Below, in pieces: positions 1,053 through 60,322 of a DNA stretch of 64,000 nt; position 1 is the stretch's first letter; every line of letters starts with the position of its first letter. The DNA is from Pinguiococcus pyrenoidosus (Eukaryota > Sar > Pinguiophyceae > Pinguiochrysidales > Pinguiochrysidaceae). Made by a program: the position numbers and the translations under genes. The stretch lies in NCBI GenBank assembly GCA_019677205.1, contig JAAMXY010000665.1, positions 1 through 64,000 of the forward strand. The letters are read 5' to 3'. The notes beneath the pieces were generated by a model. The model saw only the letters and a list, made by a program, of their open reading frames with translations. It did not search any database and had not been told where the DNA came from.

Positions 1053-2312
1053 TTAAGGGAGGAAGTAGCGGTAGAAGAAGCCTAGTGCTGGAAAGGTGTG
1101 GTCTTCCATTTCCAACGGAACCCAAGCGATCTGTGCAAGAGCCTCTGCAAAGGTTGCCTCCTCGCCCTCACCATTCAGTATCCACCACAACTCCACATCC
1201 TCGGAAAGCCCTGGACTTAAGATCTGCAGGAGAAAGGGAATGCCAGCCTCATCTGGTAGGTGTTCGCAGGCTAGAATCATCAGACTAATATCGTGCCGCA
1301 GCCTCTCACTGGCAAAGCGCAGGGCGGTGCCGGTCTGCTGCAACGCTAGCTCCGCAATAGCCGCATCATCTCTGAGATGAGGTGGAGCCCATTGGAGCGT
1401 CACTCCGTCGTTCGCCACGGCCCTCTCAACGACTCGGCGGCGCTCGCCTTCATCAGCCAGTTGCTGATACTGCAGTGCGTTAGGGTCTTGGCGCACGGCC
1501 GCCTCGACCACGCTGGCGTCGTTTCTGCATGCTTCATCCGCAAATTGCAGCGCCATCCCATTTTGCTGCACGGCCACCAGAACGATGTAGCGGTCTTGTG
1601 TACAGTTGCCCATTGCATGCCCCAGGGCCAATCCATTATTCTGCACTGCTTCCAGCACGACATCAGGATCTCGGCGTAAGCGACCGAGGGCATACCTCAG
1701 AGCGAATCCGTTGCTTCGCACTGCTTCCAGGACGATGTCGCGGTCACGGCGAAAGCGAGGAGGTGCATGCCTCAGCGCCAATCCAGACTCCGTCACCGCC
1801 GCCATCACGATTCTGCGACTGCGCAAAAGACGCTCTGGCACATGTTCAAGCGTCTCACCATGGCCGCTCACGGCGATGTGGGCGATCCGAGGATCTGCGC
1901 GGAGGGGTTCAGAAGCATACTCGTACGCCTCAGCATTTTGCGTGACAGCCTCCAGGACGATCCGCTCATCGTTTTGATATTGTGCATCTGCGTACTGCAG
2001 ATTTTCACCATCTCGCTGTACCGCAGAGAGAACCAGCTCGCGCGTGTGGCAGCCTCTTAGAATGAATCTTAGGGCGGATCCGCTGCTGCCCACCGCAGTA
2101 CAAGCGATTTGCCAGTCCCTCCTCAACGCCCTCGCCGCAAACTGGATCGCATCGCCATCATTCTGGACAGCTGCGAGCACCACATTGCGGTCGCTCCGCA
2201 GATCGTGGCTAGCGAACTGGAGCTCCCGACCATTCACTCGAACGCGCGCAAGCACGTAGTTTCTGTCCGCCCGCATTTGCTCCGTCGCCAACTGAAGCGG
2301 AATGGGAGCCAT
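1053..2312 (-). CDS. DUF4116 repeat protein
   Basis: A 419-residue single-exon frame from an ATG at 2312. Almost its whole length is a tandem array of about 24-25-residue units with the pattern 'L+.D+.vVLaAV..nG.aLqfA', for example DRNVVLAAVQNDGDAIQFA and DRDIVLEAVRSNGFALRYA. This is the DUF4116 repeat signature, which is common in protists and of unknown biochemical function. About a dozen units are visible. The C-terminal 60 residues (from LPDEAGIPFLL onward) depart from the repeat and may be a cap. The frame stays open upstream of the ATG for some 15 codons, so a further 5' exon is possible. No targeting peptide is seen. The family call is secure; function is unknown. Confidence 0.85.
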   Translation of the reverse strand: MAPIPLQLATEQMRADRNYVLARVRVNGRELQFASHDLRSDRNVVLAAVQNDGDAIQFAARALRRDWQIACTAVGSSGSALRFILRGCHTRELVLSAVQRDGENLQYADAQYQNDERIVLEAVTQNAEAYEYASEPLRADPRIAHIAVSGHGETLEHVPERLLRSRRIVMAAVTESGLALRHAPPRFRRDRDIVLEAVRSNGFALRYALGRLRRDPDVVLEAVQNNGLALGHAMGNCTQDRYIVLVAVQQNGMALQFADEACRNDASVVEAAVRQDPNALQYQQLADEGERRRVVERAVANDGVTLQWAPPHLRDDAAIAELALQQTGTALRFASERLRHDISLMILACEHLPDEAGIPFLLQILSPGLSEDVELWWILNGEGEEATFAEALAQIAWVPLEMEDHTFPALGFFYRYFLP

Positions 2313-4088
2313 GTTCTCGTCATTTTCGATCCTGCGATAGCGACGATTTTTAGTATTACAATTTTCGATATTGACAGGCGATCGGCGATCGGCGATCAGC
2401 GCTGCTCTCGAAATGGGCCTCGCTCATTGGATCACTCCGCCCGGAGGAATCGGTAACCCAGCCATAGCCGAACCTACCCTGGCATCATCTTGGGAATTCC
2501 GGCACCGGCTTCTCCAATCAGATAATATCGTTGCCCGGGAATCCGCGCTATTTGACTCCGTCCTGGAAAATCGAAAACTGATGAGGAATCCCTCGGACCA
2601 ACCGCATTGTGCCCGTCTTCTCGATACATGCACTTAGGATGCGATGCCTGCGCTTCTTATCATCCCAGAAGCAAGCTGCCCTTGCCTCACGATTCCTTGC
2701 TTCCATCTGCCACAAGCAGAACACATCGCCAGTCTGTTCCCTCTCCATTTTAGTCATTCTTAGACAGTAAATCCAACCCAGCCCAATCCCGCCTTCCCAT
2801 TGCGGATTTAATTACTGCAACCTCGCGCGGGCACTGGAGAAAATAAGAGCCCTCCGGCCCCAAAATCCTCCCCGATTTTCGCCCTCGGGCGTGCTCGAAA
2901 TTTGACCCTCCGGCGTGCTGGGCGCGCCCCTCACTGCGCCCCTCGATTTCTCTCCTCTCGAGCCGAATGCTCTCTCCGCGCGCGCGCAACCTTCCTCGCG
3001 GCGTCTCTGATTCTCAATACCCGCCTCAAAGGCGCCCCTAGCGCGCCAAGATCCTTCTCGCACGCGTCAAGAAACCCCGCCTTGCGGCGCATCTAGCTAC
3101 TGGTTCCTTCGCGCCGAAGCGCGCGGAAAGAAGCGCTACTTGACACTTTTCGTACCTCGGTGAGCGAGAATGCAGCGATGCAGAGAGCTGTCGTGGGCTT
3201 GGCGTGGTTTCTTCTCGGGAGTGGGAGCAGAAGGCGAGCAACTTCTTGCGAGGTGTGCGACGCCGAAGGCGACGAGCGACGTGGGCCGGCGGGGGATGGA
3301 GGTTCTGTGGCTGGGGCGCAGTCCGCGCAGTCTGAAGAGCCGAATGAAGAGCCGTCGGAGCTAATTTCATTTTGAAATCTTCTAATTATCACATTGCGCC
3401 TTCTCAGATGTAATGACGCGTCGCACGTATGCGGGCTGGTCACATCATGCTCTCTCTTCTCAACTTGAATGATGCGCCGCACATTTACGAAGGAGATCTC
3501 TCTCCTCTCGATGTTTGAAATTTAGGGGCGGCGCTTCTCTCCACAAGCTTGCCGATTCTTGATCAAGCTCCCTACACGTGCAATAGCAGCGTTTCCCCAT
3601 CATCCGCCGCATTCTCGCGTTCGAGGTACCTTGTAAGTAGGCAAGAGGTACCCGAAGAGTACGAAAGCGGGTGCAATTCATGCATCGATCAGGTTTGCTA
3701 CGCGCTGGTGGTACTCCAATACGTTTGTATTTGCATCGGCGTAAGCGCGTGTGCTTCTCCAGTCTTCGTCGGCCAAGTTTCGATTTTCGTCCTGCCTTTC
3801 TCTCGCATTGGAAGGAAGGATTAGAATGGGCTCCACACCGGAACGATCGCGAAGTAAGCACCCAGATCCTGGTACAGCCCAAGTTGGAAGTTCTGTATGT
3901 CAAATTGAGCCAACCCCAGAGCATCAAGCAATAACCTTGAAATTTTAACTCAAAAACATAATACTCACTCAAAAATGCCATAAAGTATAGTAAGATCAAA
4001 CGGTCCTTCTATCTCGCCATAGATTGCCTTCGCCGCCTCTCTCAAGCTCTCCCCCGCGCTTTCCCTCTCTCCCTCGCTCCATACGCAC
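2313..4088. other. Intergenic, no supported gene
   Basis: About 1.8 kb between the divergent DUF4116 and EF-hand-like genes. It includes a GC-rich part (about 2820-3120) and an AT-richer part (about 3370-3990). The small frames on both strands have irregular composition and match no family I recognise. A 179-codon minus-strand frame at 3460-3999 looks like chance. Confidence 0.5.
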
Positions 4089-13720: not shown

Positions 13721-16039
13721 ATGGCATCGGAGGGTCTCCACGGAGATCTCCGCAAGGCTGGAGAGCCGCCAACCGCGTCTGCGTGGCTCTGCTACATCAG
13801 CGCGGCCGCTCTGGTAGCATTGCTCGCTTTGGCTGCCCAGTGGTGCACCGACGTATCCGGTATCCTTTGAATTGGCGTCGGTTGGCTTTCGAGGCCATGC
13901 CAGTGGGTCTCGATGCGTGACACTCCGGCTTGCTTCCACCAGGCTTCCTCGACACTCGGTCTGTGATGGCCGATGGTGCAATTGCGGTGGAGGTGTATGC
14001 AAATGGAGACTTTGAGTCTCCGGCGACGGTCCGAGTGGATCGTCATCACTGCCAGACGAAGGAAGCCCTTCAGGTACGTCAAGGGTCTCCTGGGATGCCA
14101 CAGGTGGGAACGGGGAAGAAGCAGAGACAGACCTCGATCAAGAGGGCGTCCCCAGTGGAGAACCTGGGGTAGCGTACTGACTCCGGTTTTGTTTTGTGCT
14201 TTTGCAGGAGGTGCTCTCGTCGGTGCCTTCCCATTGCCCCTTGCGAGGCCAAGAAGGAACCCGCCAGAGCTGCGCTGCGTTTTCCGCAGACGGACGGGAG
14301 ATTGCAACGTGCGAGGTGGCTTTCAGCAGCGGTATCCCCTCTTGGGAGCCCTGTGGCCCTGAGTCTGACACAGAGTTGCACGGCAGGTCTTTGTTCCGGA
14401 AGCGAGAGCGTGGCTCGTCCCTCGTGACCGGCCGTTCATGCACGTTGCCCGGGAGGTAGGACCATATGGCTGCCCCGGAACGGTCGTAGCAACCGTGGAA
14501 GGTTCGCTCTCAATCTCTGAACTGGCAGATTGGGCATAAGATCCATTTGGACCATGTGCGAGAAGGCCTTGCGTTGGAGACGTTGAGCCTGGAGCCTCCG
14601 GTGTTCCGCGTCTCCAACTTCTTCGACCAGAGCGACGTGGAGCTCCTGAAAGCCGCTGCTTTGAAGGAGAAGGACTCGACCAAGAAGCTGCAGCGATCTA
14701 CGACGGGGACGAGCAAAGTCGAGGTGGGAACGAAAGAAGCGAGCACGGCGCTTGTGTCCATATGTTGACATGGCCGTTGCGGCGTCGCCTGTGCAGGTTT
14801 CCAGGACCCGGACATCAGAAACGGCGTGGGTGGTCGAGGCCCCCGTCTCCTTCAAGCTGAAGAGGCGCTGCTTTGAGATGCTCGGGATGCGCCCATACGA
14901 GGAGAAGATGGCAGATGGCCTCCAAGTGCTGAGGTGGAGACGTCGACCGGTCGCATTTCTGCTTGAGCGTTCTCCTGGTTTCTGACAGGTCATGGTCCGC
15001 ATAGGTACAATGTGACGGCAGCTTACAATTCCCACTACGACTTCATCGAGGGAAAAGGATGGAATCGGAAGCGGAGTGACAACCCAAAGTCAGAGCACAA
15101 GCAAAAGGCGGAGCCAATTGGTGGCGGGACGGCGGGAGAAACGGACCCGCACAACGACGAGTTCAACTGGAATCCGGCCGACGGGGGCAGCAATCGATTT
15201 GCCACGGTGCTCCTCTACCTTAGCGACGTCGCAGAAGGGGGGGAGACCGTCTTCCCACGGGCCAAGGGCTTCGACGATCAGAAGGGGTACGCCACGGCGT
15301 GAAAACTCGCAGCGCTTCGGGAAGTTGACCGGCGAACGCTTCAAATGCTTGTGCTAGGAATCGAAATGAGCTCGCCGCCTTTCGCCAGACTCCTCACGCG
15401 TCGCTGTTCCGAAGAGGATCCTGGGAGGAGAGCTTGGTGGGCCAGTGCCGGAGCAAGCTGGCCTTGAAACCAAAGCTTGGCGAGGCACTGCTTTTCTACA
15501 ATCAGAAGCCCGACGGATCGAGGGACGACAGCTCGCTCCACGGGGCGTGCCCCATCTTGGAAGGCCAGAAGTGGGCGGCGAATCTCTGGGTGTGGAACGA
15601 CTACCGCTTCGGCTACAACCGACCGAGAGGTAGGTTCTGCTGGTTGTCCGCACGAAAGCGACGGCGATCGGCCGCGTGCAGACCTTGTGACAACACGACT
15701 TGCAGCTGTCGCAGCGCAGCAGGACACGAAGTTTCGGGCAACGTTTGTGAACAAGAGCGCCCAGAGGGTGCAGCTGGTATGGTTCGACGCTACATCGCAG
15801 AGGAGAGTCGCCTTCGGGCATATCGCCTCGGGAGGCTCAAAAGGTGAGGAGGCCAAAGCGCTTGTGGCAGCCGTCGGGAGGGTGACTTCGTAACAAGTCT
15901 TGCTCTCCAAGTGATGGACACATACCGAGATCATGTCTTCGAGCTACATCAAGCGGCTGTCGCCGAAGGAGCGTTGGACGATCTCTCCCGAGTGAGGCAC
16001 TTCTCGCTTGAGGAAGGCACAGTCTTCGTGCACGAGTAG
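13721..16039 (+). CDS. Prolyl 4-hydroxylase with C-terminal VHL beta-like domain
   Basis: Ten exons: 13721-13859, 13943-14073, 14208-14315, 14387-14455, 14529-14723, 14797-14933, 15005-15298, 15358-15629, 15706-15843, 15912-16039, totalling 536 residues with every phase consistent. Near residues 18-45 is an uncleaved signal anchor (AWLCYISAAALVALLALAAQ), so a type II ER/Golgi protein. The P4H catalytic domain follows: VFRVSNFFDQSDVELL, AAYNSHYDFI (His-x-Asp iron ligands), FATVLLYLSDVAEGGETVFP, then DDSSLHGACPILEGQKW with the distal His and the 2-oxoglutarate-binding Lys. The last two exons encode FRATFVNKSAQRVQLVWFDA and MDTYRDHVFEL, which match the beta domain of von Hippel-Lindau protein, including the 'SYRGHLW' hydroxyproline-pocket block (here TYRDHVF). 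It would hydroxylate prolines and may also bind hydroxyproline. Confidence 0.85.
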
Positions 16040-16517
16040 AAGAGCAGCTGCGTTTGGAGCGAGGCGTCCATGTTTTTTTGTGGGCGGCAGTGACACCGAA
16101 GGCGGAGGAGCACGAAAAGAGAGCAAGGACCGACGCCGTTGGTGATGCGTTGCCGTGCGGAACTCAGCTGGAGTGACACGAAAGCGAGACGCTCACGTAG
16201 GAGGAGAGCGTGCGAGATTACGATAGACGGTGTACAAAGCAGAGGCTTCACTTGACGAGCTGAAGGAGCTGAAGGAACTGGAGGGACTTGCGGCTGCCTT
16301 CGATGTGTCGCATTTGCTATCCTGCAACGCGAGGTTGCGATCATTCGCACCGACCAAGAAATGCTGCTCACAAGCGTCTGGCTGCTTCTGCTTCTGCTTC
16401 TGCTTCTGCTTGTGCCTTGATAGAGAAGACCTTTGCGCGTTTCACGCAGGGAAACCCGGTTGACACCCCGTTGCCAATTGCCCTGTTGGAAACGTCCCCA
16501 TCCTCCCCGAAGTGGTC
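16040..16517. other. Tail-to-tail gap; expected SECIS region
   Basis: This holds the 3' flanks of the P4H-VHL and DsbA-like genes and a CTTCTG microsatellite near 16381-16410. If the DsbA-like gene is a selenoprotein, its SECIS hairpin should lie on the minus strand here. An ATGA occurs on the minus strand at 16344-16341, but the helix after it is too short for a convincing SECIS core by eye. Confidence 0.4.
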
Positions 16518-17561
16518 TTATTCCAAGTCGAGGAAAACGTTGATGAACTCCTGGACGGACTGTGCGCCCATGTGCACAATGCTGCCATCGATGATCCAGG
16601 AGGGCACCCCGTCCATACCGAAGCGCTCCTATTGTTGCAGGAAGAGTATGAGGGGTGGAACCTTCCGTGCATTCACATTCCTCCGCGGACTCACCGTATA
16701 GCTTTGATATTGGGTCATGACCTCGTCCAAGAAGACAGCCTCGTTGCCTTCACCTTCCCAAGGCCAGACGATTGACGAGAAGGATAAGGGGGGGGAAAGT
16801 AGGAAGTAGGAACAAATCCAGAGTCGCTGAGGAATGTGCCACCGATACGCACCCAGTACTTCAGCGGCATCGTCGATGCCGACTCTCTTGGAGGCATCTA
16901 GCAAGACGGTGGGATCGCCTACGTGCCATAGACTCGTAAGTTCTGATGTTCCTGCTGCGCCCTTCCCATGGTCGGCCCATGCTCACCGATGAACCTCTCG
17001 TTCTGAAAGTTGTCGAGAAACAGGGCTTCCACGAGCTCGTTCTGCTTCTGCCAGCCATATTTCTCAAGACACCACGCAAGCAGACGTTGGGAGTCGACCG
17101 TGCTGCCGGTCTTTCCTCCCATGCTGAAGCGAATCCCGATGTCCTGCGCTCCTTTCATGAGGTAGTTCCAGAACCCAAAATGCACTAGGCGCAGTGGCTT
17201 ACCGCCATTCTATTGGTGAGCTCCTCCTCCTCTGTGGACCTCGAGTGCGTGCGTCCATAAAGCGAGCGCTACAGAAGGCTTTGTGTGAGCCCAGCGTCTT
17301 TCGCAACATGAGATCCGCAGAGATTCACAGGTGAGGCACCTTTGCAAAGCCTTGGCCACGCGGCTGGAGAGGCTCCAGGAAGAAAGGGCGGTAGCGGATC
17401 TCCAGCTGCCAGCCGTGGTGTGCGCTTTGCACCTGCGCCGCCGCCGCGTCGAGGTAGCGCTTGCCGAGGAGGCACCACGGTCACGCGGTGTCGATGATGG
17501 CGTCGACCTGGATCACGCGCTGCGCAGCGTCCATGGGTAGCACGAGCGGTGGCTCGGACAT
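16518..17561 (-). CDS. DsbA/FrnE-family oxidoreductase, predicted selenoprotein
   Basis: Six exons: 17561-17340, 17268-17203, 17143-16987, 16918-16853, 16753-16695, 16628-16518, giving 226 residues if one TGA is read through. The start reads RVIQVDAIIDTA, then TGA (17483-17481), then PWCLLGKRYLDAA. Family members read '..D..CPWC.+GKR..' here, so TGA stands in for the first active-site Cys and would make Sec-Pro-Trp-Cys. Downstream homology continues without break: FFLEPLQP, ELTNRMADIGIRFSMGGKTG, DSQRLL, VGIDDAAEVL, DEVMTQYQ, FGMDGVPSWIIDG (with the cis-Pro loop GVPSW). The fold is a thioredoxin domain with a helical insertion, as in FrnE/2-hydroxychromene-carboxylate-isomerase relatives. The likely role is thiol-disulfide redox chemistry; there is no signal peptide. 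The alternative is a gene with a premature stop, which six intact exons argue against. Confidence 0.82.
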
Positions 17562-17829
17562 CGCAAGCGCTGAAGGCTTCGCGATGGTTGCGCTTTTGGC
17601 GCCAAAATCTCAAGTGCGCCTTTTGGTCACGGAATTTCCGCGAAATTCCATGGATTCAGAAGCCCGCAGCGCCGCTCTACCGGTGAATTTTGGTTTCAAA
17701 TGGAAGCCTTTCGAGTCGTCCTACGGCCCCGATAAGCGAGAAGAACTAATAATTTTGCGAACAGGCACATGATTGGAAGACTGCTTCAACCGTCCATGAA
17801 AAAGGTATCTTCGCAAATCATCCCATACA

Positions 17830-18138
17830 ATGACACCGCAGGAACCACAGGAACCTGCTCAGCTGATTGGTATTCAAACCGCGACGCCCTCGGCTGCTTT
17901 GTGGATCCCGCGCGACACCGCCGATGGGTTTGTGGACGTTGCGCGACACAGCATCGAGAATCGAGGCATCCTCCCGTTATACCTAGGTACCAAGAAAAGG
18001 CGTTTCCTGTTACATCGAATGCTACGACGGTACGTCTTCTTCTCCGTATGGCGGATAGACACGTCTGATCTGCTCGTCAGGGACGTCCTGGTGTTGCGGC
18101 GCGGGCGTCCAATCCATCAGTCAGAGTCAGCCACTTGA
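17830..18138 (+). CDS. Possible small hypothetical protein
   Basis: A 102-codon frame from an ATG (MTPQEPQEPAQLIGIQ). Its first half (ALWIPRDTADGFVDVARHSI) looks protein-like; the second half, after a possible GTACCA donor near 17986, looks less so. No family recognised. It lies between the DsbA-like start and the convergent plastid-protein gene. Confidence 0.3.
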   Translation: MTPQEPQEPAQLIGIQTATPSAALWIPRDTADGFVDVARHSIENRGILPLYLGTKKRRFLLHRMLRRYVFFSVWRIDTSDLLVRDVLVLRRGRPIHQSESAT

Positions 18139-33081: not shown

Positions 33082-33693
33082 GGCCACTGGGACGCGAAGA
33101 AAAGCGCGCGAAAACCTGTTTTGCCTGCTCTGATGCGGATGTCCGATCTTTTTAGCACGAAACTACGGTTTGAAACTAACCGATGAGGGTCAGCTGATGC
33201 TCCGGCTCCCGCCAATTTAACGGAATCGATATTTGAAATCTTATTCAAATTTTGCAAGTCGAGGCTTGTGCGCGCATCCTACATCACACAGAAACGGACA
33301 GCTGGCAAAATAGGAAACGCTATCAACGCGACTTGTGGGAGAACAGAAAGCGTCCCGTTTGAACCGCTGGCGTTTTCGGCGGCGACCTTCGGGATGCGCC
33401 GCTAGTCTGCGGCGCGCTTGGGGGCCATCCCGCCATGTGAGTCAGCGTGGCCTGTGTACCAAGGTCTCGAGCGGCTGTGGCAGCACATCTCGAGGCGCAT
33501 ACTTGCGGCGTGCATCGTCTCTGTCCGCATCTCTGCAGGGCTGCAACGCGGGTGGATCTCCCGGACATGGTCGGACTTGTCTCCTCGTGCGACGCTGACA
33601 CCGCGCGAACGGCTTCTGAGAGTGCCTTGAGAAGCTTGGAGTAGGTTTTGGAGGCGGCGCGAGGCGCAAGTCTTGCTTTCACAGCGCTACGCC
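33082..33693. promoter_or_regulatory. Head-to-head intergenic region
   Basis: About 610 bases between the coiled-coil protein (minus) and kinesin (plus) starts, with an AT-richer patch at about 33215-33260. Both promoters are presumed here; no specific element identified. Confidence 0.45.
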
Positions 33694-36600
33694 ATGAGCG
33701 AAGAGGTGGAGCCCGTCCAAGTCGTCGCCCGGATTCGGCCGGGCGACGACCCCGATGCGGTCCCCGTGGTGGCCATGACCGCCGCTGGCAACGAGGTGGT
33801 GACCCGGGATCCGGAGGAGAATCCGCAACGGCGGAAAGGACAGCGGGTGTACCGCTGTACGGAAGTTTTGGGGCCGCAGAGCGCACAAGAAGAGGTGTAC
33901 AGGCTTGTGCGCCCATTGGTGCTCAGCACGGTGAAAGGCTACAACGCGACAGTCTTTGCCTATGGCCACACGGGCTCTGGCAAGACGCACACGATGACGG
34001 GAACTCCGCAGGAGCCCGGGGCCATTCCCCGAGCGATTGCAGACATCTTCGCGACGATCCGGCTGGCGACGCAACGGAGCCACGATGTCATGTTCCTGGT
34101 CCGCATGAGCTTCGTTGAACTGTACAACAACGCCTTCCGCAATCTGCTGCCGGAGGCGGCCTTCGACAAGACGGCGAGCACGCCGACCGACAGGACGGGC
34201 TCGTCTCGACGGACGACGAAAGGCGGGAAGATCGAGGTGCGGGAGGCGGACAACAAGGGAACCTTCCTGTCCGGCAAGGGCCTGCGGCACACCGTGCGGA
34301 ACGTGCAGGAGGCTGTCTCATTGTACCGCAAGGGACTGAGATATCGAGCGACCGCCACGACGGATCTCAACGAGCACAGCAGCCGCAGTCATGCGGTGCT
34401 CACGTTCCACGTCGAGTCGCGGTTCCTCAACGGGAGCGGGCAGGCGGAGGTTCGCCTCGGGAAGCTCAACCTGGTGGATCTCGCGGGGTCCGAGCGGCTC
34501 AGTATGAGTCACGCCGAGGGAGAGACGCTCGCTCAGACGCAGCACATCAATCTCAGCCTCAGTGCGCTTGGAGATGTGCTCAGCACGCTGAGTGCGAAGG
34601 CTCAGGGCCGCGAACAGGGCACCGTGGTGCCCTATCGGAACTCCAAGCTGACCTTCTTGCTGAAGGACTCCCTCGGCGGCAACTCGAAGACGCTCATGAT
34701 TGCGAACCTGCATCCGGATCCGATCTTCTTCAAGCAGACCTTGATCACACTCATGTACGCTTCACGAGCTGGTCGCATCCAGAATCGGGCCTCCGTCATC
34801 ACCGATGTGAAGGGCGAGTCCGGGATCCACCAGGTGACCCTTGACATCGACGAGCTCCGACGGCGCCTCCAGGACAGAGCGTCGCAGTTCGAAGCCCTGA
34901 ACCAGCAGCATGCGCAAAGCGCGCAGGAGAACGTGCAGCTGCGGGCGAAGCTGCAGAGCCTCAACGACGCGAACCTGCAAGAAAAGGAAATGCTTGAGCT
35001 GCGCCTCAAGGAGGTGATCACCTCTGCGGCGTCGCACTTTCAGCGGGAACGAGACAACTTCATGAGCTTGGAGCACAAGCTCAAGGCGAGGCTCAGCTAC
35101 TTCCAGCACAAAGTCCAAGAGCAGGAGCAGGAGCTCGAGTCCCTCCGGTCGACGGTGCAGGAGCTCCAGTCCAGCCGGCGGCCGGCGGCGGAGATGACGG
35201 AGATGCAGAAGGCGCTAGACATGTGGCAGGGACAAGCTGCGCAGGCGAAGGAAGAGGTGCAGACGCTCACGAGAACCCATGCAGCCTTGTCCAGCAACAA
35301 TCGCGAGTTGCAGAGCCATGCCGACCGCCTGGGTCGCGAAGTCGTCGGCCTCAGGAGCGCCAACCAGACCCTGGATCATGACGCCCAGGCTTTCCGCACG
35401 CTCGAGAACAAGCTGAAGCTGCCGCTGCGCCTTGCCCTGAGCGTCCTGTCTGAGGAGGCGTTTCGAGCGCTGGTGCTCCAGAAGCTTTCCTCGAGCCTCC
35501 CCTTCGAGTTTGAGCTGCTGTCAAGGGTGGCGAGCACTGCGAACAGCGTTAAGCTGCTGCAGGATCGCCTAAGCACCCTGCGGATGGAGAAGAGAACCAC
35601 CGAAGCCGAGCTGAACTCCCTTTGGACCTCGGTCAAGCAGCAGACCGGCCTTCTGGGCCAAGGGAAAGCCTTGGCGTACCTGAAGCGAGCGGCCAAGGAG
35701 TGGCCAAGGCAGAAGGCGCTGAACGATCGACTGCACGAGACCTTGGAGAGCTTCAAGGGTAGCATCGTGAAGCTGCAAGAGGAAGCCCACGCCGCGCTGG
35801 CGAACAGGGACGCGCAGATCGAGGCCCTCAAGGAGCAGCTCGGGAGGCTTGAGGAGGAGGGCGCCAGGGACAGCGAGGAGAAGTCACAGAAAGCACAAGA
35901 AGAGCTTCGCCACGTGACAAAGATGTATGGCGAGCGCGAGGAGCGGCTCCTTAATGAAAAGCGGGAGAGCGTCGCCTCGCTGCAGGCGAAGTTGCAGGCG
36001 ACTGAGGGCGAGCTGAACAGGACTTTCAGCGAGCTACACCGGGCGCAGATCACCATCAAGGGACGCGAGCGAATGCTGGACGCGAGGGAACGCTTGGAGG
36101 AGGAGAACGATCACTTGTCTTACCAGTACGAAGCATGCCGGCGCCTACTGGACGAGGCACGATCACAGGCTGCCGCCCACTTGGCCGAACTTAGCAGCAC
36201 CAGGCGCTGCCTGGAGGAGAAGCAGGCCGAATTGGACACTGCGAGCCAGAAGTTGGAGGAGGTGGAGAGCGTCCGAGAAGAAGTGGAGATTGCGCATGCG
36301 CAAGCCATGACGCGGGTGGTGGCGTTGGCGGTTAGCGACACGGCGAGGATGAGACAAAGCCTCCAGAGCGAAGAGCAGCGCGCGGCGGAGGCCACGAAGC
36401 TGGCCAAGGAGCGGACGCAGATGTTTGCCGAGGAAGAGAAACGAGCTATGGCAGCCGTTCAGGACCTCACGGACATCAAGGCTGACATGGTGTACATGGG
36501 GATGCAGCTTCGCGAGCGAGAGGCGGCCGAAGAAGAGGCTAAGAGAGCTCAGGAACGTGTTCAGGAGCTGGAGACACTCCTCGCGGATCATGAGATGGCA

Positions 36601-39600
36601 GCGGAAGACAACGACCGCCTCAAGGACAAGACTGCTGCGCAGGAGAAGGAGATCGAAGCACTCCGGGCGGACGTCGAAGAACGCGATGCTCGCTTGGCAA
36701 GTTTCCAGACTCAGGCCGAGGCTCTGCGCACGGAGAACTTGGCTCTGATGGGTGCTGGCGAGGCACATTCCAAGCAGCTTGAAAGCGGCGAGAAGGCCCT
36801 CGAGGTCGCGCGATCTCAGATTGAAAGGCTTCAAGCTGAGCTCCTCGAGCAGGCCGCGACGGCTGCCGCATTGAAAGCGGACCTGTCCGGCACGGAGGAG
36901 AGCATCAAAGAGCAGGCGGACGAGAAGCTCGCCCTCGAGGATAGGGTGAAAGAGATGGTGGAAAGCCTCGCGGCGAGCAATGCGAGGCTAGTGGAGCTAG
37001 AGAAGCATGCGTCGGAGGAACAAGCATCCGCACAGCAGGAGATCGATCGCCTGAACGCTGAGCAAGCCACATCCAAGGCGGACCACGAGACCACGCTGAG
37101 CAACCTGCAGGAAGCTCGTGTTCATCTCGAGAACGAGGCCACTCGGCTAGGCGACCTTCTACGTGTCGCGGAATCTGATCAAGAAGAGCTGCAGGCACAG
37201 TTTGACGAGTTGAAGGCCGAACGAAGCTCCCTCCTCTCGAAGCTGATGACGGCACACTCTCAGGAGGTCGAGCTCCGCGGTGAGCTTCGCCGGGTCGCTG
37301 CGGAGGACGAGCAGAACCTGGAGGCGCTCCACGATGGATTACAGAAGGCCGAAGAGGAGAATCGGGCGCTTCAGCAGAAGCTCGTCGATCGCGACCACGA
37401 AATCTCGGACATGCGCGGCTCGGTGTCGCGAACGGCCGCGGAAGTCTCTGAGCTTCGGAGCTTGAAGAGCGAGCAGGATCAGCAAATTGCGAGACTCGAA
37501 GAGGAACTCGCGCAGGAGCGAGCGGCGTCAGAGGAGTTCCAGCGCGCGTCCCAACAGGCCCAGAAGGACGGCCAGGAGGTCCTGCAGCGCGCCCAGACAA
37601 GAGTAGACGATCTGGACAGGGTGATAACCGAGAAGCTGGAGCTTGAGAAGGAGCTTCGGACTCGCATCGAAGACCTGGCCTCTGAGAAGGTGGCAGAAGC
37701 AGAGCAGCTGGACAGCCTCCGCACGGAAGTGGGCGCTTTTGCCACCGAGAGGGATCAACTGGCTGCGAAGATCGCACAGCTTGTCAGCGACGCCGAAGCG
37801 AAAGACCTCGAGGTGCTGGACTTGCGCAGAGCACATGCAGCTGAGAAGGAGCAGATGACGATGGCACTTTGCGAGTGCCAAAAGCGATTGGAGGAGTCGT
37901 CGCGGAGTGCTGAGCTCGCACAAGCGGCAACTGCAGATCTAGAGATGGCGCAGAAGGCGTTGAGCGAGGAAATGCTTTCGAAGGATGCGGACGCCGATCG
38001 ACGCAGCGCTCAGCTTGAGAGGGCCACGCGTCGAGCTGATGAGTTGCAGAAGCAGCTTGCAGACCTCAACCAGCAAGTGAGAGAGGAGGCCGAGGCCTCG
38101 AATCAGCTGCGACGTCTGCTCACGGTGAGCGAAGCAAAGCTCGAAAGCCTGGGTGGGAGGTGTGGCGAAGCAGACAAGTCTGCAGCCGAGTTCCAGGCGA
38201 AGGCACAGTCCCTGGCGGAAAGCAACGCGGAGCTCCTCGGAAAGCTGGACTTCACCGAGCAGGAGTTGCGCCGGGCCTGCGAGGCGCTCAAGGCAGCCGA
38301 GGGGACGATCTCCACGAACGAGGAGCACATTGCGGAGCTCAAGCGAGATGCGCGGGAAGAGCGCCAGGGTCGGGAGGGTGCGCAACTCCAGGCGCAGAGC
38401 ACCCAGCAGGAGGCCATCGAAGCTCGGACGCGGCTCGCAGAGCTCGTGGAAGCGAAAGCGGCTCTCCAAGATTCGCTCACGTCCACGCAAGCAGAGCTCG
38501 CGTCGTCCCTGGACGCCCTTCATCAGCTTCGAGAAGAAAGGGCTGCAGCAGCTTCCCGCATCGAGGCCCTCCAAGCCGACTTGGCGAGAAGCGAATCAGC
38601 CCGAGAGACTCTCCAGGAGGAGGTCGCCGTCCTCAAGGAAGCCAAGGCGCACGCAGAGGGGGGCCTGATGCAGATGCGCGCGGAGCTAGATAAGACGAAG
38701 CAGGTGGTAGATCAGCTGCATGCGACGCATGCGAGCGCGCTCGAAGGAGCGGGTGGTATGCAGAAACAGCTGGCTATCGCGAACATGGAGGTGGCGCGAC
38801 TGAACGAGACCAAGGATGCTTTGCAAGCGACGCTGCAGGAGGCAACAGCGAAGCTGCATCTGGCCCACGAAAACCTCCAGGCGACGCAGTCGGAGGTGAG
38901 AAGCCTGTCCGACGCTGGCGATGCGCTGAAAGAAGAGCTGGAGTCGAAGGTGCGGGCGGTTGAAGCGCATCTTGCCGACAGCGAGGCTCAAAAGGCGCGG
39001 ATTGAGCACCTGGAGCAGAGTCTGAGGGAAGCGAAGGACGAATGCAGCACGTTCGAAGCGAACTCCCTCGTTCTGCAGGACCGGCTTCAAGCTGCCGAGA
39101 CGTCTCTGGAGCAGATCAGGGAGTCCGCAACAAGCAGCGACGCTCAGATGGCGCAGCTGGTGCAGCGGCATACGAAGCAAAGCAATGAGCTGCAGGCGAC
39201 GAGAGAGGAGCTAGTCGTGTCCAAGCAAACCGCAGGGAAAGTGAAACAGGAGCTGCTGGACTTGCGATCGCTGCTGGACATCAGCGCGGACGAGAATGAG
39301 CAACTCCGGCAGCACCTCAAGAGTGCGAAGGCCTCGGCGAGCGCTGAAAAGACTCGGGCCGACACGGAACGAAGTCGAGCCGACGAGACGGCGGAAGAAA
39401 ACCGCCGCCTCGCAGCGGAACTGGAGAGCCTTCACGCGACGCTTGACGCCAAGGCCCAAGAGCTGATTGGTCAATCCGCAAGCCTACAGAGCGAGCTTGC
39501 GGAAAGTCGACAAAAGCTGCTCAGCATGGAACGGGAAGTCGAGGCGAAACGCCAGGTGACCGCCGCGGAGAAGGCGACGCTGCAGGAAGAGCTCGCGCGC

Positions 39601-41985
39601 GCGAAGAAGGAGGTTGCTCACCTGTCTGCCCAGACGCGTCAAAGCGAAGAAGCGCTGCACGCCAAGCAGAGCGAGTTCGATCGGGAGCGGATCCAAATGG
39701 CGGCGGCATCAGCAGCAAAGAGCTCCCGTCTGGAGGATGCGGAAGCGCGGGCGCAGCAGCTGTCCGCGGAGGTCCAGCAGCTCAGGCAGCTCATCACGGC
39801 TGCGACGGCTAGCCTTGGACCGGCGGAGAACGAAGGCAACGGCCACGCTCCTCTCGCTCAGGAGCCGCCGAACCTCAAGGCCATGCTGGAGATGAAGATT
39901 GCCATGAAGCTACAGCAGGCGACGGAGGCTCACGAAGCGGAAAAGGCAGAGCTGCAGCGGGTGCACGAGGCGAAGCTCTCGGAAAGCAAGGTGCAGGTCG
40001 AGACGGACTTCGAAGTTCGCGACAAGGTGTACCAGGATGAGATCCGCACGCTGGAGGAGAAACTCGCCCAGGCGGAGCAGCAGGAGGCCTCCCTTCGAAA
40101 TAGCCTTGAAGCGCAGAAGAGCCGGACGGAACGGCTCGCGGCGGTGTTTGCGCAGGTCCGATCCGACATGAAGGAGACCGAAGGCCAGCTCACCCTGGCC
40201 CGCGCGGAATCCGAATCGGAGATCTCCAAGCACCTGAGAGAGATCAACCTGTGGCAAAGCAAGTTCCAGTTGCTGGACGACGGACATCGAAAGAGCTTGC
40301 GACAGCTGGAAGGCGCGAATGAAACGCTCGCGGATGTCATGGGAGCGCGAGACCAAGCAAACCGACAGCGAGATGACCTGTCCGAGCAGCTGCAGGCGTT
40401 GCGCAAGAGGCTTCAAGACGCCAACTCTGAGATCGACGCGCTGAAGAGCAAGGCGGAGGTGAACGTTGCTGAGATGGATCGGCGAATCGCTGAGCTGGCC
40501 GATCAGCACGACCGGGAGATCTCCTTCATCCACCAGGAGAATGAGACCCATCTGCGAGAGCTTGCCGAACAGCATGAGAAGGAGCTGCGAGAACGGGAAC
40601 GGGCGATCAGCCGATCCGGTAGCGAGGTGAATCGGATGGTGCACGAGGAGCTCAGCGCTTTGAAGGCGACCTACACTGATCGCCTTCAGAAGTTGGAGAA
40701 CGACAGCAGCGCTCAGATGGCGGCGCTGCAGCATGCGCACGCGCTGGAGCTGGAGAAGCAGCGCCGGGCTGCCGAGCACGCGAGCGCCGTCCTTGAGCAA
40801 GTGAGAAAACAGACGCCGCGGCAGCGACTGCAGACCGTCTTTGATGACATCACGTCCGGCTCGTGCGCGATCTCTCCGTCCGAGCAGACGTCCTTCCGGC
40901 GCCTTGCGAAGCAGCTTGCAAGCCTGGCCCGCAGCAGTACCGCCGGGGTCGCGGATCGAGAGAACAGCTTGAGCCCGCGCCATGGAGGGAAATCGCCTCA
41001 GTCCGCGGCAAGTGCGACGCAAAGGACACGCCTTAAGCTGTCGGACGCTGGAGAAGCGCCGCTGAGCCCGCGAAGTGCAAACGTTGACCATCCGAGTCCA
41101 ACCCTCCCACATCCACCGGTGTCCAGCTTAAGTCCACCGGCGTCCAGCTTAAGTCCACCGGTGTCCAGCTTAAGTCCACCGGCGTCCAGTGCAAGTCGCC
41201 CGGCGTCCAGCGCGGCTCTGCCACCATCGAAGGAAGCTCCACCTGCGTCGAATGAAGACCCAAGTGGCCTTTGGGCTGAAGCAGCTGCAACGGAGGCGAG
41301 GTCGCCGTCCAGCGCCCTTCACTTCATCGGTCCCCACAGGATTGACCCCATGATCTTTGCCGAGCGCGTCTCGGCTGCAGCAATTGAGGGAAACAGCATC
41401 GCGCTGTCGAAGATCCTCCACGAAGCCGGCATCCATAGCATGAAGGACGACTGCAACTGCCTCAGAAGCACGTTGCTGCCGCTGCATCGAGCTGTGAGCG
41501 GTTTCCATTTTCATGGGAACAAGAGACTCCTTATGAACACGCTTGGAACGCTACTGAACTTTGGAGCGGACGTTGAGCAGCGGGATCACTACGGCAACAC
41601 CATCACCGCGAAGGCCATTCAGACGTGCACCAACAGCGCCGTACTGCCCGTGCTGAAGCTCCTCCTCAAAGGTGGCGCTCCGACGAACGTTGCCAACAGC
41701 GAGGGTGACACGCCGATCCATGCGGAGATGAAGCGGTTGCGCCGAGACTCGTCGGCGGTCATTGAGCTTCTCGTAAGCCATGGGGCCGACATCAACGCCA
41801 CCGATCGCTTTGGGGAGACGGCGTGGCAGATATTTATGAAGCTGGTGAGCACAGGGAAGGTTCCCCCGTACGGCGCCAAGATGCTGCGCACCCTATTGGA
41901 GAGCGGGAGCGCGGTTACAAGCCCAGCAGATGTCCGACAAGCGCAGAGCCTCATGTCACGACTGGAAACAGGACGGACCACGTGA
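33694..41985 (+). CDS. Giant N-terminal kinesin with C-terminal ankyrin repeats
   Basis: An uninterrupted 8.3-kb frame, 2763 residues from the ATG at 33694. The motor (about residues 5-375) has VARIRPG, the P-loop YGHTGSGKTHTM, switch I NEHSSRSHAVLTFH, switch II LVDLAGSERL and NSKLTFLLKDSLGGNSKTLM. An active plus-end-directed ATPase is expected. Residues about 390-2390 are almost continuous coiled coil, followed by a conserved-looking globular segment (RLQTVFDDITSGSCAISPSE). Then comes a Ser/Pro linker with PVSSLSP repeats (nucleotides 41116-41200). The last 200 residues carry ankyrin-type units: LLNFGADVEQRDHYGNTI, LLLKGGAPTNVANSEGDTPI and LLVSHGADINATDRFGETAW. Motor order resembles long CENP-E/KIF15-like kinesins, but the ankyrin tail sets it apart. 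Cargo unknown; the tail probably binds protein. Confidence 0.92.
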   Translation: MSEEVEPVQVVARIRPGDDPDAVPVVAMTAAGNEVVTRDPEENPQRRKGQRVYRCTEVLGPQSAQEEVYRLVRPLVLSTVKGYNATVFAYGHTGSGKTHTMTGTPQEPGAIPRAIADIFATIRLATQRSHDVMFLVRMSFVELYNNAFRNLLPEAAFDKTASTPTDRTGSSRRTTKGGKIEVREADNKGTFLSGKGLRHTVRNVQEAVSLYRKGLRYRATATTDLNEHSSRSHAVLTFHVESRFLNGSGQAEVRLGKLNLVDLAGSERLSMSHAEGETLAQTQHINLSLSALGDVLSTLSAKAQGREQGTVVPYRNSKLTFLLKDSLGGNSKTLMIANLHPDPIFFKQTLITLMYASRAGRIQNRASVITDVKGESGIHQVTLDIDELRRRLQDRASQFEALNQQHAQSAQENVQLRAKLQSLNDANLQEKEMLELRLKEVITSAASHFQRERDNFMSLEHKLKARLSYFQHKVQEQEQELESLRSTVQELQSSRRPAAEMTEMQKALDMWQGQAAQAKEEVQTLTRTHAALSSNNRELQSHADRLGREVVGLRSANQTLDHDAQAFRTLENKLKLPLRLALSVLSEEAFRALVLQKLSSSLPFEFELLSRVASTANSVKLLQDRLSTLRMEKRTTEAELNSLWTSVKQQTGLLGQGKALAYLKRAAKEWPRQKALNDRLHETLESFKGSIVKLQEEAHAALANRDAQIEALKEQLGRLEEEGARDSEEKSQKAQEELRHVTKMYGEREERLLNEKRESVASLQAKLQATEGELNRTFSELHRAQITIKGRERMLDARERLEEENDHLSYQYEACRRLLDEARSQAAAHLAELSSTRRCLEEKQAELDTASQKLEEVESVREEVEIAHAQAMTRVVALAVSDTARMRQSLQSEEQRAAEATKLAKERTQMFAEEEKRAMAAVQDLTDIKADMVYMGMQLREREAAEEEAKRAQERVQELETLLADHEMAAEDNDRLKDKTAAQEKEIEALRADVEERDARLASFQTQAEALRTENLALMGAGEAHSKQLESGEKALEVARSQIERLQAELLEQAATAAALKADLSGTEESIKEQADEKLALEDRVKEMVESLAASNARLVELEKHASEEQASAQQEIDRLNAEQATSKADHETTLSNLQEARVHLENEATRLGDLLRVAESDQEELQAQFDELKAERSSLLSKLMTAHSQEVELRGELRRVAAEDEQNLEALHDGLQKAEEENRALQQKLVDRDHEISDMRGSVSRTAAEVSELRSLKSEQDQQIARLEEELAQERAASEEFQRASQQAQKDGQEVLQRAQTRVDDLDRVITEKLELEKELRTRIEDLASEKVAEAEQLDSLRTEVGAFATERDQLAAKIAQLVSDAEAKDLEVLDLRRAHAAEKEQMTMALCECQKRLEESSRSAELAQAATADLEMAQKALSEEMLSKDADADRRSAQLERATRRADELQKQLADLNQQVREEAEASNQLRRLLTVSEAKLESLGGRCGEADKSAAEFQAKAQSLAESNAELLGKLDFTEQELRRACEALKAAEGTISTNEEHIAELKRDAREERQGREGAQLQAQSTQQEAIEARTRLAELVEAKAALQDSLTSTQAELASSLDALHQLREERAAAASRIEALQADLARSESARETLQEEVAVLKEAKAHAEGGLMQMRAELDKTKQVVDQLHATHASALEGAGGMQKQLAIANMEVARLNETKDALQATLQEATAKLHLAHENLQATQSEVRSLSDAGDALKEELESKVRAVEAHLADSEAQKARIEHLEQSLREAKDECSTFEANSLVLQDRLQAAETSLEQIRESATSSDAQMAQLVQRHTKQSNELQATREELVVSKQTAGKVKQELLDLRSLLDISADENEQLRQHLKSAKASASAEKTRADTERSRADETAEENRRLAAELESLHATLDAKAQELIGQSASLQSELAESRQKLLSMEREVEAKRQVTAAEKATLQEELARAKKEVAHLSAQTRQSEEALHAKQSEFDRERIQMAAASAAKSSRLEDAEARAQQLSAEVQQLRQLITAATASLGPAENEGNGHAPLAQEPPNLKAMLEMKIAMKLQQATEAHEAEKAELQRVHEAKLSESKVQVETDFEVRDKVYQDEIRTLEEKLAQAEQQEASLRNSLEAQKSRTERLAAVFAQVRSDMKETEGQLTLARAESESEISKHLREINLWQSKFQLLDDGHRKSLRQLEGANETLADVMGARDQANRQRDDLSEQLQALRKRLQDANSEIDALKSKAEVNVAEMDRRIAELADQHDREISFIHQENETHLRELAEQHEKELRERERAISRSGSEVNRMVHEELSALKATYTDRLQKLENDSSAQMAALQHAHALELEKQRRAAEHASAVLEQVRKQTPRQRLQTVFDDITSGSCAISPSEQTSFRRLAKQLASLARSSTAGVADRENSLSPRHGGKSPQSAASATQRTRLKLSDAGEAPLSPRSANVDHPSPTLPHPPVSSLSPPASSLSPPVSSLSPPASSASRPASSAALPPSKEAPPASNEDPSGLWAEAAATEARSPSSALHFIGPHRIDPMIFAERVSAAAIEGNSIALSKILHEAGIHSMKDDCNCLRSTLLPLHRAVSGFHFHGNKRLLMNTLGTLLNFGADVEQRDHYGNTITAKAIQTCTNSAVLPVLKLLLKGGAPTNVANSEGDTPIHAEMKRLRRDSSAVIELLVSHGADINATDRFGETAWQIFMKLVSTGKVPPYGAKMLRTLLESGSAVTSPADVRQAQSLMSRLETGRTT
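41116..41200 (+). repeat. 21-bp coding repeat in the kinesin linker
   Basis: About four copies of a 21-base unit encoding P-V/A-S-S-L-S-P in the flexible linker before the ankyrin repeats; the last copy diverges. Confidence 0.8.
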
Positions 41986-57018: not shown

Positions 57019-59911
57019 CTACTTTTGCTGCTCTTCTGCCAACGCGCTGAGGCGAGGATCGGCGGTCAGTTGCTTGTCAAGGTCTGCGTACTTCTGCAAG
57101 GCATGGTCTTCGTGCTGGGTCAGGCGCTGGTCTAGAATCTGGATCCGGAAGGTGGTCTTCAGGCAGAACTCCTCGAACTCGCGCTCCGCCTCCGGGTCGG
57201 CGTTTTGCCCTCGATGGAAAACCGCCTGCCGCTTGGCCAGCTCCGCCTTCTCTTCGTTCAGCCGGTTCTGAATGATGTTCGCGCGCTCGAGAAGCCGTTC
57301 CTTCAGAGCACGGAGGCACGCATCCCGCGCCTGCTTCGCTTTCTCACGCGGTAGAGGGCCGTCGGGGACGTCATCCGGCAAGAATGGAGTCAAGTAGTCC
57401 CCAAGCACACCGTCGGTACTCTGGCGCCGCCCGAGGCCCTTCTTCTCCGCTTCGTCCTGGGTGAAGCGCCGCTCGCGCGCCAAGTCGAAGATCGGGAGGT
57501 CGAGGATGATGGATTCCTCTTCCTGCTCCCGCTGGAGCAGCAGGTTGTTCGTTTCCTCTAAGTGGTCCTTGATCATCTTGACGGTGTTCTTCTCCGCGGC
57601 CGCCGCCGCCTCCACCTGCTGCTGCAGCTGCTGCGCCTGCACGGTCGGCATCTCTCCGGCAGTCTGCGCGCTGCTGGCGGACCGCAGCGTCGTCGGGTAG
57701 GATGCCGTCGCTCGCGTGATGCGACCTTCAGCGTAGTGGTACTGCTCCTTCATGAGGCCCTGCCGGACATAGAAAGTCCGCTTCGCCACGTCCTCGTCCG
57801 CATTCGGCAGCTCAGGATTCCGCCCGTACTTCTCGGTCATCTTGGCGATGGCCAGCTGGTTCATTCCGGCCGGAGCTGCAAGGAACAAGGCACTCTCGGC
57901 CCGGTCGCCCGCGTCCAGCTTCTCTCGGTCTACCAGTTGGACGCTCAGGTTGAAGAGCAAGTCGGCCCTTCCCTCGTAGAGCTCTTCAACGCTGCGTCCG
58001 ATCTCCTCGTCGCGCTGGTAGAGCCCGTCCAGGCGTGCGTCCGAGTAGAACGTGAGAATGCGCCGATGGCCTTGCCACTCGATTCGCTCCTTCAGCGCAG
58101 GCTGAGGCGACGGCCGGCCTGGCAAGAAGAACTCGTGCACCTTCGCCTCCAGGGGGAACCGCCGCCTCAGAAGGAGCTTGTCCCGTCGATTCATGAAGTC
58201 CTCCTTGATCTCCTGGACGACAGTCATCTTGTTGTCGACGAAAGTCGTGAGCCGCCGAACGACGCCGTCCGGATGGCGATTCGGGGTGAAGAGCTCCAGC
58301 TTGGATTTCTTGTAGATGAGGATCCGTCGGCCCTCCGGGGGGTATCGAAGCTCGAAGCGCTCCCGCGGGATTTCCAGCTTGTAGACCCACGTCGGGGGCT
58401 TCTCGAGCACCTGGCGAGTTTCAGCGAGACCGGCTGAGTTGCGCGCTTCGTCTCCTCCGCGAGGAGCCTTGGAACGTCGGCATCTATCTTCTTACCGGCT
58501 TGGAGTCTTCCCCGTCGCCCGCGCCCTCATTCGCCTTGTCAGCCTCGCTGGGCGGTTCCTCGGACGCCGATCCCTCGTCACCGGCGCCGGCGCTCGCGTT
58601 CTTCTTGTCCGCACCGTCGTCGATCAGCACGAACTCCCACTCCTTGTCACTCGAGAAATCGTAGCTCAAGCCCTTGAGAGTCCGTTCCTCAGCCGGCTTC
58701 TGCATGTTGACCCAATAGTTCTTGTGGTTCCAGGCGGCCTCGATGGAGTGATAGGGACTATCGTCAACGGGCATCACCCTTCCCGTGGACGCCTCGACGA
58801 AGACGGCCTCCTCGACGTCCCTCTTGCCACCCAGAACCAGGACCCAAGCATGTATGCGCTGACCGTGCAGGGGATCTTCGTCCTCCGTGGGAGGGAGGCT
58901 GTCGACGTCTTCGTGCACCGCCCACACCGTCTCAGCGGGGTCCACAACCTGCTCTCGTTTGCGCCGCTCCTCCATGTCTTTCAGGTAGGTGGACTCGCGT
59001 ACGCCACGGGATTCGACCTGGTAGGGCTCGCGAGCTTCGATGGAAGGCGAGTTGTCAAGGACCGAGTCGTCCTCGTTCTCGCTGCTGGTCTCCGCGGTGC
59101 CATCCTCTGCGTCGTTCGTTTCTGGCCCCGCCCCAGCCCCCGCTGGTGCCGCCGTCGCGTCTTCAGGGGTATCTCCACCTTTTGCCGCAAGCTCGGCTTT
59201 CTCAGGCACAGAAGTCGCCTTGCCAGGAGTCTTCGTGGCCGCGGCAACCATTGCCTCCGCCTTTGAGCCAACCGACACGGGACAAGCGAGCTCGGACTGG
59301 TCCTTGACGCACACCCAGCGCGGTGCCGTGCCGTACACGACGTACGCGTCATACCCGACGCCAAGGAGGTAGCTGCACAGTAGCATGGACATGTCGAAGG
59401 CGTCGCCAACGCCCCAATCGAGCACCTGAGAACTGCTAGGCAGAACCTCTGCAACCCAGAACAACGAAGCGATCAGGAAGGACCTGCTGCGACCTTGCTG
59501 CTGGGGGCATCCAACGGGCTCAGAAAGCCAGCTTGCATACACAAACTCACCTGGCGGCTTCTCGGCATGCTCTACGGTTTCATAGTGCAGGAAGTACGCG
59601 AAGAAAGAGGCGCAGGACTCCAGATCATACAGCTCCTTGTAGGGGAGCTGCGTGGGACGGAGGCTGCAAACCACAAACTTTCGTACGCCGCACTCGTTCT
59701 GGGGCGCCAGATAGAGTGGTCTCCTCTCGGGGAAAAGTGCAGCAAAATCGCGGGCGAAGTTGTCGACGTACTCCAGGCACAGCGCCTCCTTTGCGCTGCT
59801 CGTGCGGAAGGACTCTGGAGAGGCCTCTGTGTCCAGCGCCCCGGTGCGCTCCGTCTTGGCCGCACGGCGGCCCTCCGCTGTGTACGTATCCGGCAGGCTA
59901 AATTGCACCAT
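57019..59911 (-). CDS. DRC7: Dynein regulatory complex subunit 7 (CCDC135/lobo)
   Basis: Three exons, 59911-59551, 59448-58496 and 58410-57019, for 901 residues, close to animal DRC7. ALCLEYVDNFARDFAALFPE and PLYLAPQNECGVRKFVVCSL form the conserved opening. A transglutaminase/peptidase-like segment follows: SSQVLDWGVGDAFDMSMLLC then SYLLGVGYDAYVVYGTAPRW. The Cys/His/Asp triad of true transglutaminases is not evident, as expected for this family. Next come HGQRIHAWVLVLGGKRDVEE, PYHSIEAAWNHKNYWVNMQ, WVYKLEIPRERFELRYPPEG and a coiled-coil C-terminus (NRLNEEKAELAKRQAVF). DRC7 sits in the nexin-dynein link of motile axonemes. An acidic low-complexity insertion (about 59040-59240) separates two domains. 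It starts at the second ATG-like codon, the first true ATG (MVQFSLPDTY). Confidence 0.93.
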
Positions 59912-60322
59912 GATCGCTGGCAAGCATGCGGGAAAATCTTCAGGATGTTGCGCGATCGGCCAAAGTTCTCCACGTGAAACCGTCGGGCTGCGGCTATATG
60001 ACTGTCACCAGACGCAAGACTGTCACAGGACAGTGGAAGCGAGCCTTCCGCAACCTCCAGAACCGGGATCGCCTCCGTTCAAATACGGGGCCGGTTCTAT
60101 CCGGTTCTATCCTCACCGCCTTCACTTCGGACGCCGTGACGTTCCGGTTTATGCCGCAAATCACGCAGCCGCGTGGAAAACCGGGGCACTCCGGAAAGTG
60201 AAACCGTCGCAAGGGCGCTTGGGTCGCTCTCGCTGTTCCGGCTGTCACAGATCTACGTCAGCCTTGGCGCTCAGCTTCTTCCAGCAGCCGAGTCGCCGCC
60301 GCAGTGCTCCCGCAGGTCCAGC
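59912..60322. promoter_or_regulatory. Head-to-head intergenic region
   Basis: 411 bases between the DRC7 (minus) and ferredoxin-like (plus) starts; both promoters presumed, no specific motif identified. Confidence 0.45.

Follow-up and report, generated by a model that had tools for sequence, protein, structure and literature searches.

Sec-containing proteins of the DsbA/FrnE type are already in print for algae, chordates and bacteria. In the excerpt of Liang et al. 2019 on which we draw, Mamiellophyceae and Mesostigma viride are listed as having a Sec-containing FrnE oxidoreductase, and algal selenoproteins, especially those of Mamiellophyceae, were predicted without a SECIS (PMC6627142). 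Sec-DsbA has been described in Ciona and Branchiostoma in a paper that also mentions a previous case, Micromonas; in three chordate DsbA proteins the upstream Cys of the CXXC motif is replaced by Sec (PMC2874816, in the sections drawn on here). The cited part of a survey of algal selenoproteomes counts DSBA as one of the Sec families with the widest distribution in algae (PMC7539508). A marine prokaryote DsbA 1 (pfam01323, UxxC) belongs to the GOS selenoproteome, according to the portion of that report used here (PMC2398784).

The original prediction had called the gene described below a probable new-type selenoprotein and had regarded Sec in this family as little described in eukaryotes. Neither view holds in the light of the reports on Mamiellophyceae, Mesostigma, Micromonas, Ciona and Branchiostoma, and the alga's gene is very probably a further example of the known Sec-DsbA/FrnE proteins, not a new kind of protein. 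Like the FrnE of Mamiellophyceae and Mesostigma, as presented in the excerpt (PMC6627142), it would be a Sec-containing FrnE of a eukaryotic alga. With the chordate Sec-DsbA proteins it shares the position of Sec and, in the case of Ciona, a similar misannotation as UTR, whereas a SECIS was identified only in the chordates, as far as the cited sections go (PMC2874816). The likeness to the DSBA of algal selenoproteomes is one of family name (PMC7539508). The GOS DsbA 1 has the same Pfam family and Sec motif, but it is prokaryotic in the portion cited (PMC2398784), whereas the gene studied here is an intron-bearing nuclear gene.

The DsbA/FrnE-type gene is located on the minus strand at 17561-16518 of the window, by which we mean the whole stretch of 64,000 nucleotides that was analysed. 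In the preferred model it has six exons and a product of 226 aa. Exon 1 (17340..17561) contains the ATG, the N-terminus and the active site with the TGA, and ends with ...QGFAK. It is followed by exon 2 (17203..17268; RSLYGRTHSRSTEEEELTNRMA), exon 3 (16987..17143), exon 4 (16853..16918), exon 5 (16695..16753) and exon 6 (16518..16628), the last of which holds the GVPS loop and the TAA stop at 16520-16518. The introns are all GT-AG, with lengths of 71, 59, 68, 99 and 66 nt, and the exons join in phase. Codon 27 is an in-phase TGA (17483-17481, minus strand), around which the frame reads ...QVDAIIDTA-TGA-PWCLLGKRYLDA..., and it is the only in-frame stop within the 226 codons. The GC content by codon position is 0.62/0.39/0.77.

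Six intact, phase-consistent exons had been proposed originally, and this was retained in our model with a different start of exon 2. In the first model exon 2 was confined to 17229-17203, giving a protein of 213 aa that is about 18 residues short at this place in comparison to its homologues. A start at 17268, with the acceptor TTCTGTAG, adds 13 residues. The structure match to SCO1869 (3gl5) then improved from 1.4e-10 to 3.6e-12 and that to FrnE from E 6.6e-8 to 1.3e-9, whereas the Pfam score did not decide between the models (76.4 bits for 213 aa and 75.9 bits for 226 aa). As the gap to the homologues is partly filled and the structure matches are better, 17268 is the more likely start on sequence grounds, and the 226-aa model was preferred over the one starting at 17229. 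The choice leaves the TGA unaffected.

With an E of 3.2e-21 the protein is a member of PF01323, the DSBA-like thioredoxin family (positions 1-186 of the 191 of the profile, beginning at residue 18; similar for the 226-aa model). Among solved structures it matched SCO1869 (3gl5) and FrnE (5cnw/5cp1) over nearly the full length, including the active site and the GVP loop, with Cys in those proteins at the position where the TGA is found here. In a profile search for homologues all but one of 8,000 scored candidates (7,999) passed. Residues were counted by column among the 120 matches listed, in 119 of 121 proteins, the two entries of the gene itself (P0001 and P0002) being excluded. The original prediction had proposed to look for homologues with Cys or TGA at the column of codon 27. 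All 119 aligned homologues have Cys there and read CPWC where the alga's protein has X-PWC, X being the TGA, so that the in-frame TGA at the first active-site Cys was borne out. The Pro-Trp-Cys that follows is likewise invariant (119/119). Towards the C-terminus V185 and P186 (213-aa numbering) were found in all 119 listed proteins, G198 in 119, Q200 in 118 and G184 in 115, and both the GVP loop and the GxQ are present in the FrnE-like protein. Many of the 119 are close relatives of each other, and diverged algal homologues lie outside this comparison. The listed bacterial Cys homologues have 23-30% identity to the alga's protein, and the rows with an organism name belong to what we take to be actinobacterial genera. 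Judged from this alignment, the coincidence of the lone stop with a position occupied by Cys in 119/119 of the listed matches is more than chance.

The MMETSP transcript protein P0001 (132 aa; Transcript_4607) agrees with the predicted product at every residue (100% identity) between the last codons of exon 2 and the stop. It joins the final two residues of exon 2 to exon 3 and continues through exons 4, 5 and 6, so that four splice junctions out of five are confirmed; its span begins downstream of exon 1 and the TGA. The ORF, which is labelled 'complete', starts at Met-95 of the 226-aa model, the first Met to follow the TGA. The label is indirect evidence, from an independent transcriptome, of an in-frame stop ahead of this Met; a transcript that retained intron 1 would have such a stop, in frame with exon 2, as well. 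A second protein, P0002, which comes from a JGI contig, includes translated introns of the gene and stops short of exon 1.

The original prediction had also proposed a check for Sec machinery in the genome, and genes for both tRNA-Sec (72.3 bits, anticodon TCA) and eEFSec were found. The eEFSec gene matched PF21208 with 65 bits and the solved eEFSec 5izk/7zjw at 7.8e-101. SelD was over the cut-off, in two pieces of one frame with 256.8 bits together. From these matches the genome appears to carry the means of Sec insertion, namely tRNA-Sec, eEFSec and SelD. The SelD matches (L063/L064; G000:C403:30829-31824) fall within the C-terminal portion of a single long open frame, of which the N-terminal part looks by eye like an NAD(P)H-dependent oxidoreductase. 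The SelD site reads RCGGCGAKV, without a TGA.

Other redox families of the same genome were compared for stops. None of the 37 thioredoxin-domain matches has a stop inside the matched stretch, and a general reassignment of UGA as a sense codon was rejected on this count. The matched stretches of five MsrA and six AhpC-type hits were stop-free as well. One of two Rdx matches (L009) spans a TGA and a TAG; it was rejected as a Sec candidate, as it reads CTGC and the two stops are apparently intronic. Among three GPX matches, two have TGA at the classic Sec site (NVASY-TGA-GKT and NVASF-TGA-GQT) and the third has Cys. The L008 GPX contains a second TGA, apparently within an intron; its first piece alone gave 25.7 bits (Pfam cut-off 27), and the genome search gave 33.9 bits, above the cut-off. 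For PF08806 (Sep15/SelM) the genome search gave no matches, and the controls were also silent. The PF01323 profile itself gave no match in the whole genome despite the presence of the FrnE-like gene, so exon-by-exon family searches are weak in this genome. A second copy of the gene was not found in an exon-wise search, which a diverged paralogue could escape; all five genome matches were pieces of the gene at 17561-16518.

Each of the two GPX 3' flanks contains one hairpin (L006:2062-2125 and L008:2148-2212, on G000 contigs C550 and C382) with a common anatomy in the unconstrained minimum-energy fold. On the 5' side this consists of an outer helix, a 7-nt 5' loop G(A/G)AUGAA and a helix II of 6-7 bp, and the remainder is a 3-nt bulge, a 3-bp mini-helix and a 3' loop GGA(G/A)A. 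Helix I, the ATGA/GA quartet, helix II and an apical region are thus all present, and the stop codons precede the ATGA by about 75 and 135 nt. One published SECIS search, in the part of the paper that we cite, used as a criterion an unpaired AA or CC located 10-13 nt downstream of the quartet (PMC2375036); this is absent from both hairpins, which have GA at 8 nt instead. A descriptor of the anatomy, drawn from these same two cases, gave three hits in 498 kb on both strands (some loci overlap), two of them the GPX elements. The GPX2 hairpin is unusually stable (z -4.04, 1/200 shuffles as good), and the stability of the GPX1 hairpin is ordinary (z -0.77, 40/200). As MAFFT had misaligned the pair, the covariance model R1 was built from the GPX1 hairpin entered twice, and it did not discriminate, placing the GPX2 hairpin at 4.3 bits, rank 13 of 17. 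Because R1 missed GPX2 above noise and the GPX1 fold is unremarkable, the evidence for a SECIS in the GPX genes is the shared anatomy of the hairpins, which are possibly a lineage-specific SECIS form.

A SECIS of the FrnE-like gene would be expected in its 3' flank (16040..16517, minus strand). By eye, the stop of a convergent gene lies at 16037-16039, which leaves about 478 nt for the 3'UTR unless the two overlap. The original prediction had seen no SECIS by eye, and our scans agreed. An Rfam scan of 15000-18000 gave no SECIS hits; Rfam SECIS_1 gave none genome-wide at E up to 1, the GPX loci included, so that the silence of Rfam at the FrnE-like gene, as it also misses the GPX genes, is uninformative. 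With sensitivity calibrated on the two GPX examples only, the GPX-type descriptor had no hit in unspliced sequence down to 14500 or in 1,803 trial GT-AG splices with donors up to 478 nt from the stop. The minimum-energy-fold scan had none in 1,518 nt of the flank (down to 15000), as compared to one per GPX flank and two in 60 kb of background, and the canonical NTGA-AA/CC-GA pattern was not found at the gene. Two hits antisense to the convergent gene were poor and were rejected, one at 15839 (strict stem scan, and canonical-pattern scan with GA) and a single one at 15933 (helix-II scan). A short candidate at 16307..16356 (minus strand) has an ATGA quartet at 16344, a 5-bp helix II and AGGAT, and resembles the GPX loops. 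It came from a relaxed descriptor, chosen after the sequence was seen, with 17 hits in 498 kb on both strands (one at FrnE, two GPX elements and 14 elsewhere; some loci overlap). R1 gave 21 matches on FrnE, the best at 8.5 bits, with the candidate at rank 10 (4.5 bits). The minimum-energy fold differs from the candidate (z -1.38), which is not claimed as a SECIS. No convincing SECIS was thus found for the FrnE-like gene, which is the main gap in the Sec reading. Given similar gaps in algal selenoproteins in the excerpt of Liang et al. (PMC6627142), the gap alone is not strong evidence against Sec. There may be a divergent SECIS class in this alga, with a helix II of 6-7 bp and GA for the apical AA in both GPX genes, and with a more reduced or remote element in the FrnE mRNA that present models do not recognise, perhaps the 16344 hairpin; we consider this speculative and rather unlikely.

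The convergent gene (about 14500-16039, plus strand) has a 2OG-Fe(II) oxygenase domain (PF13640) and looks prolyl 4-hydroxylase-like by eye. Its next exon (ATFVNKSAQRVQLVWFD...) resembles a pVHL beta domain by eye, and Pfam gave no hit for that piece. Elsewhere in the window there are a 456-aa open frame with eight DUF4116 stretches (1056-2423, minus strand) and a 2784-aa open frame that matches a kinesin motor and, towards the C-terminus, ankyrin repeats (33631-41982, plus strand). At 57022-60004 (minus strand) adjacent frames matched dynein regulatory complex subunit 7 and a CEP76 peptidase-like domain, and their predicted products suggest a flagellated organism. The same genome includes a contig of 37.8 kb with 29% GC, whose genes (tufA, psbB, ilvB and others) we take to be those of a plastid with a red-lineage gene set, and which marks the organism as an alga. 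In this respect the alga presumably differs from the Archaeplastida that the study of Mamiellophyceae and Mesostigma covers (PMC6627142).

We consider it well supported, with a probability of roughly 85%, that UGA encodes Sec as originally proposed and that the FrnE-like gene encodes a Sec-Pro-Trp-Cys thiol oxidoreductase with Sec at the first active-site residue. This assessment is based on the full active-site context, the transcript, the genes for tRNA-Sec, eEFSec and SelD, and the two Sec-GPX genes. A decaying gene or a strain-specific nonsense mutation, in which a Cys codon became TGA and function is being lost, would fit with the failure to find a convincing SECIS near the gene or a second copy that could show the Cys form. 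Such a gene would hardly be expected to have its remaining codons and splice sites intact and a transcript ORF, nor its sole stop at the known Sec residue of the family in a genome with Sec machinery, and decay is therefore improbable.

The start chosen by the MMETSP ORF caller, downstream of the TGA, could instead be taken at face value, with a functional truncated protein from Met-95 and exon 1 as UTR. The active site would then be lost, yet exon 1 keeps the invariant PWC and GK in frame, and in the Ciona DsbA selenoprotein gene the part with the Sec-TGA was likewise miscalled UTR, according to the cited sections (PMC2874816), so that truncation is even less likely than decay. The least probable of the alternatives is an error of sequencing or assembly at the TGA. 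P0002 ends short of exon 1 and thus leaves room for one, but the error would need to strike exactly the Sec-prone codon, and the 'complete' label of P0001 points to an upstream in-frame stop, for which a retained intron 1 is the alternative source.

If codon 27 is read as Sec, the ribosome would decode the UGA with tRNA-Sec(UCA) and eEFSec, presumably guided by a SECIS in the 3'UTR of the FrnE mRNA. The selenolate of Sec-27 would act as the nucleophile that attacks substrate disulfides or becomes oxidised, and the retained Cys-30 may resolve the selenenylsulfide.

The gene adds a Sec-DsbA/FrnE from another alga. Its annotation is a typical misannotation, in which the transcriptome ORF starts past the TGA and the predicted protein is consequently without its catalytic part. 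If functional, the non-canonical hairpins shared by the two GPX genes would help to account for the failure of SECIS finders on some selenoprotein genes of algae.
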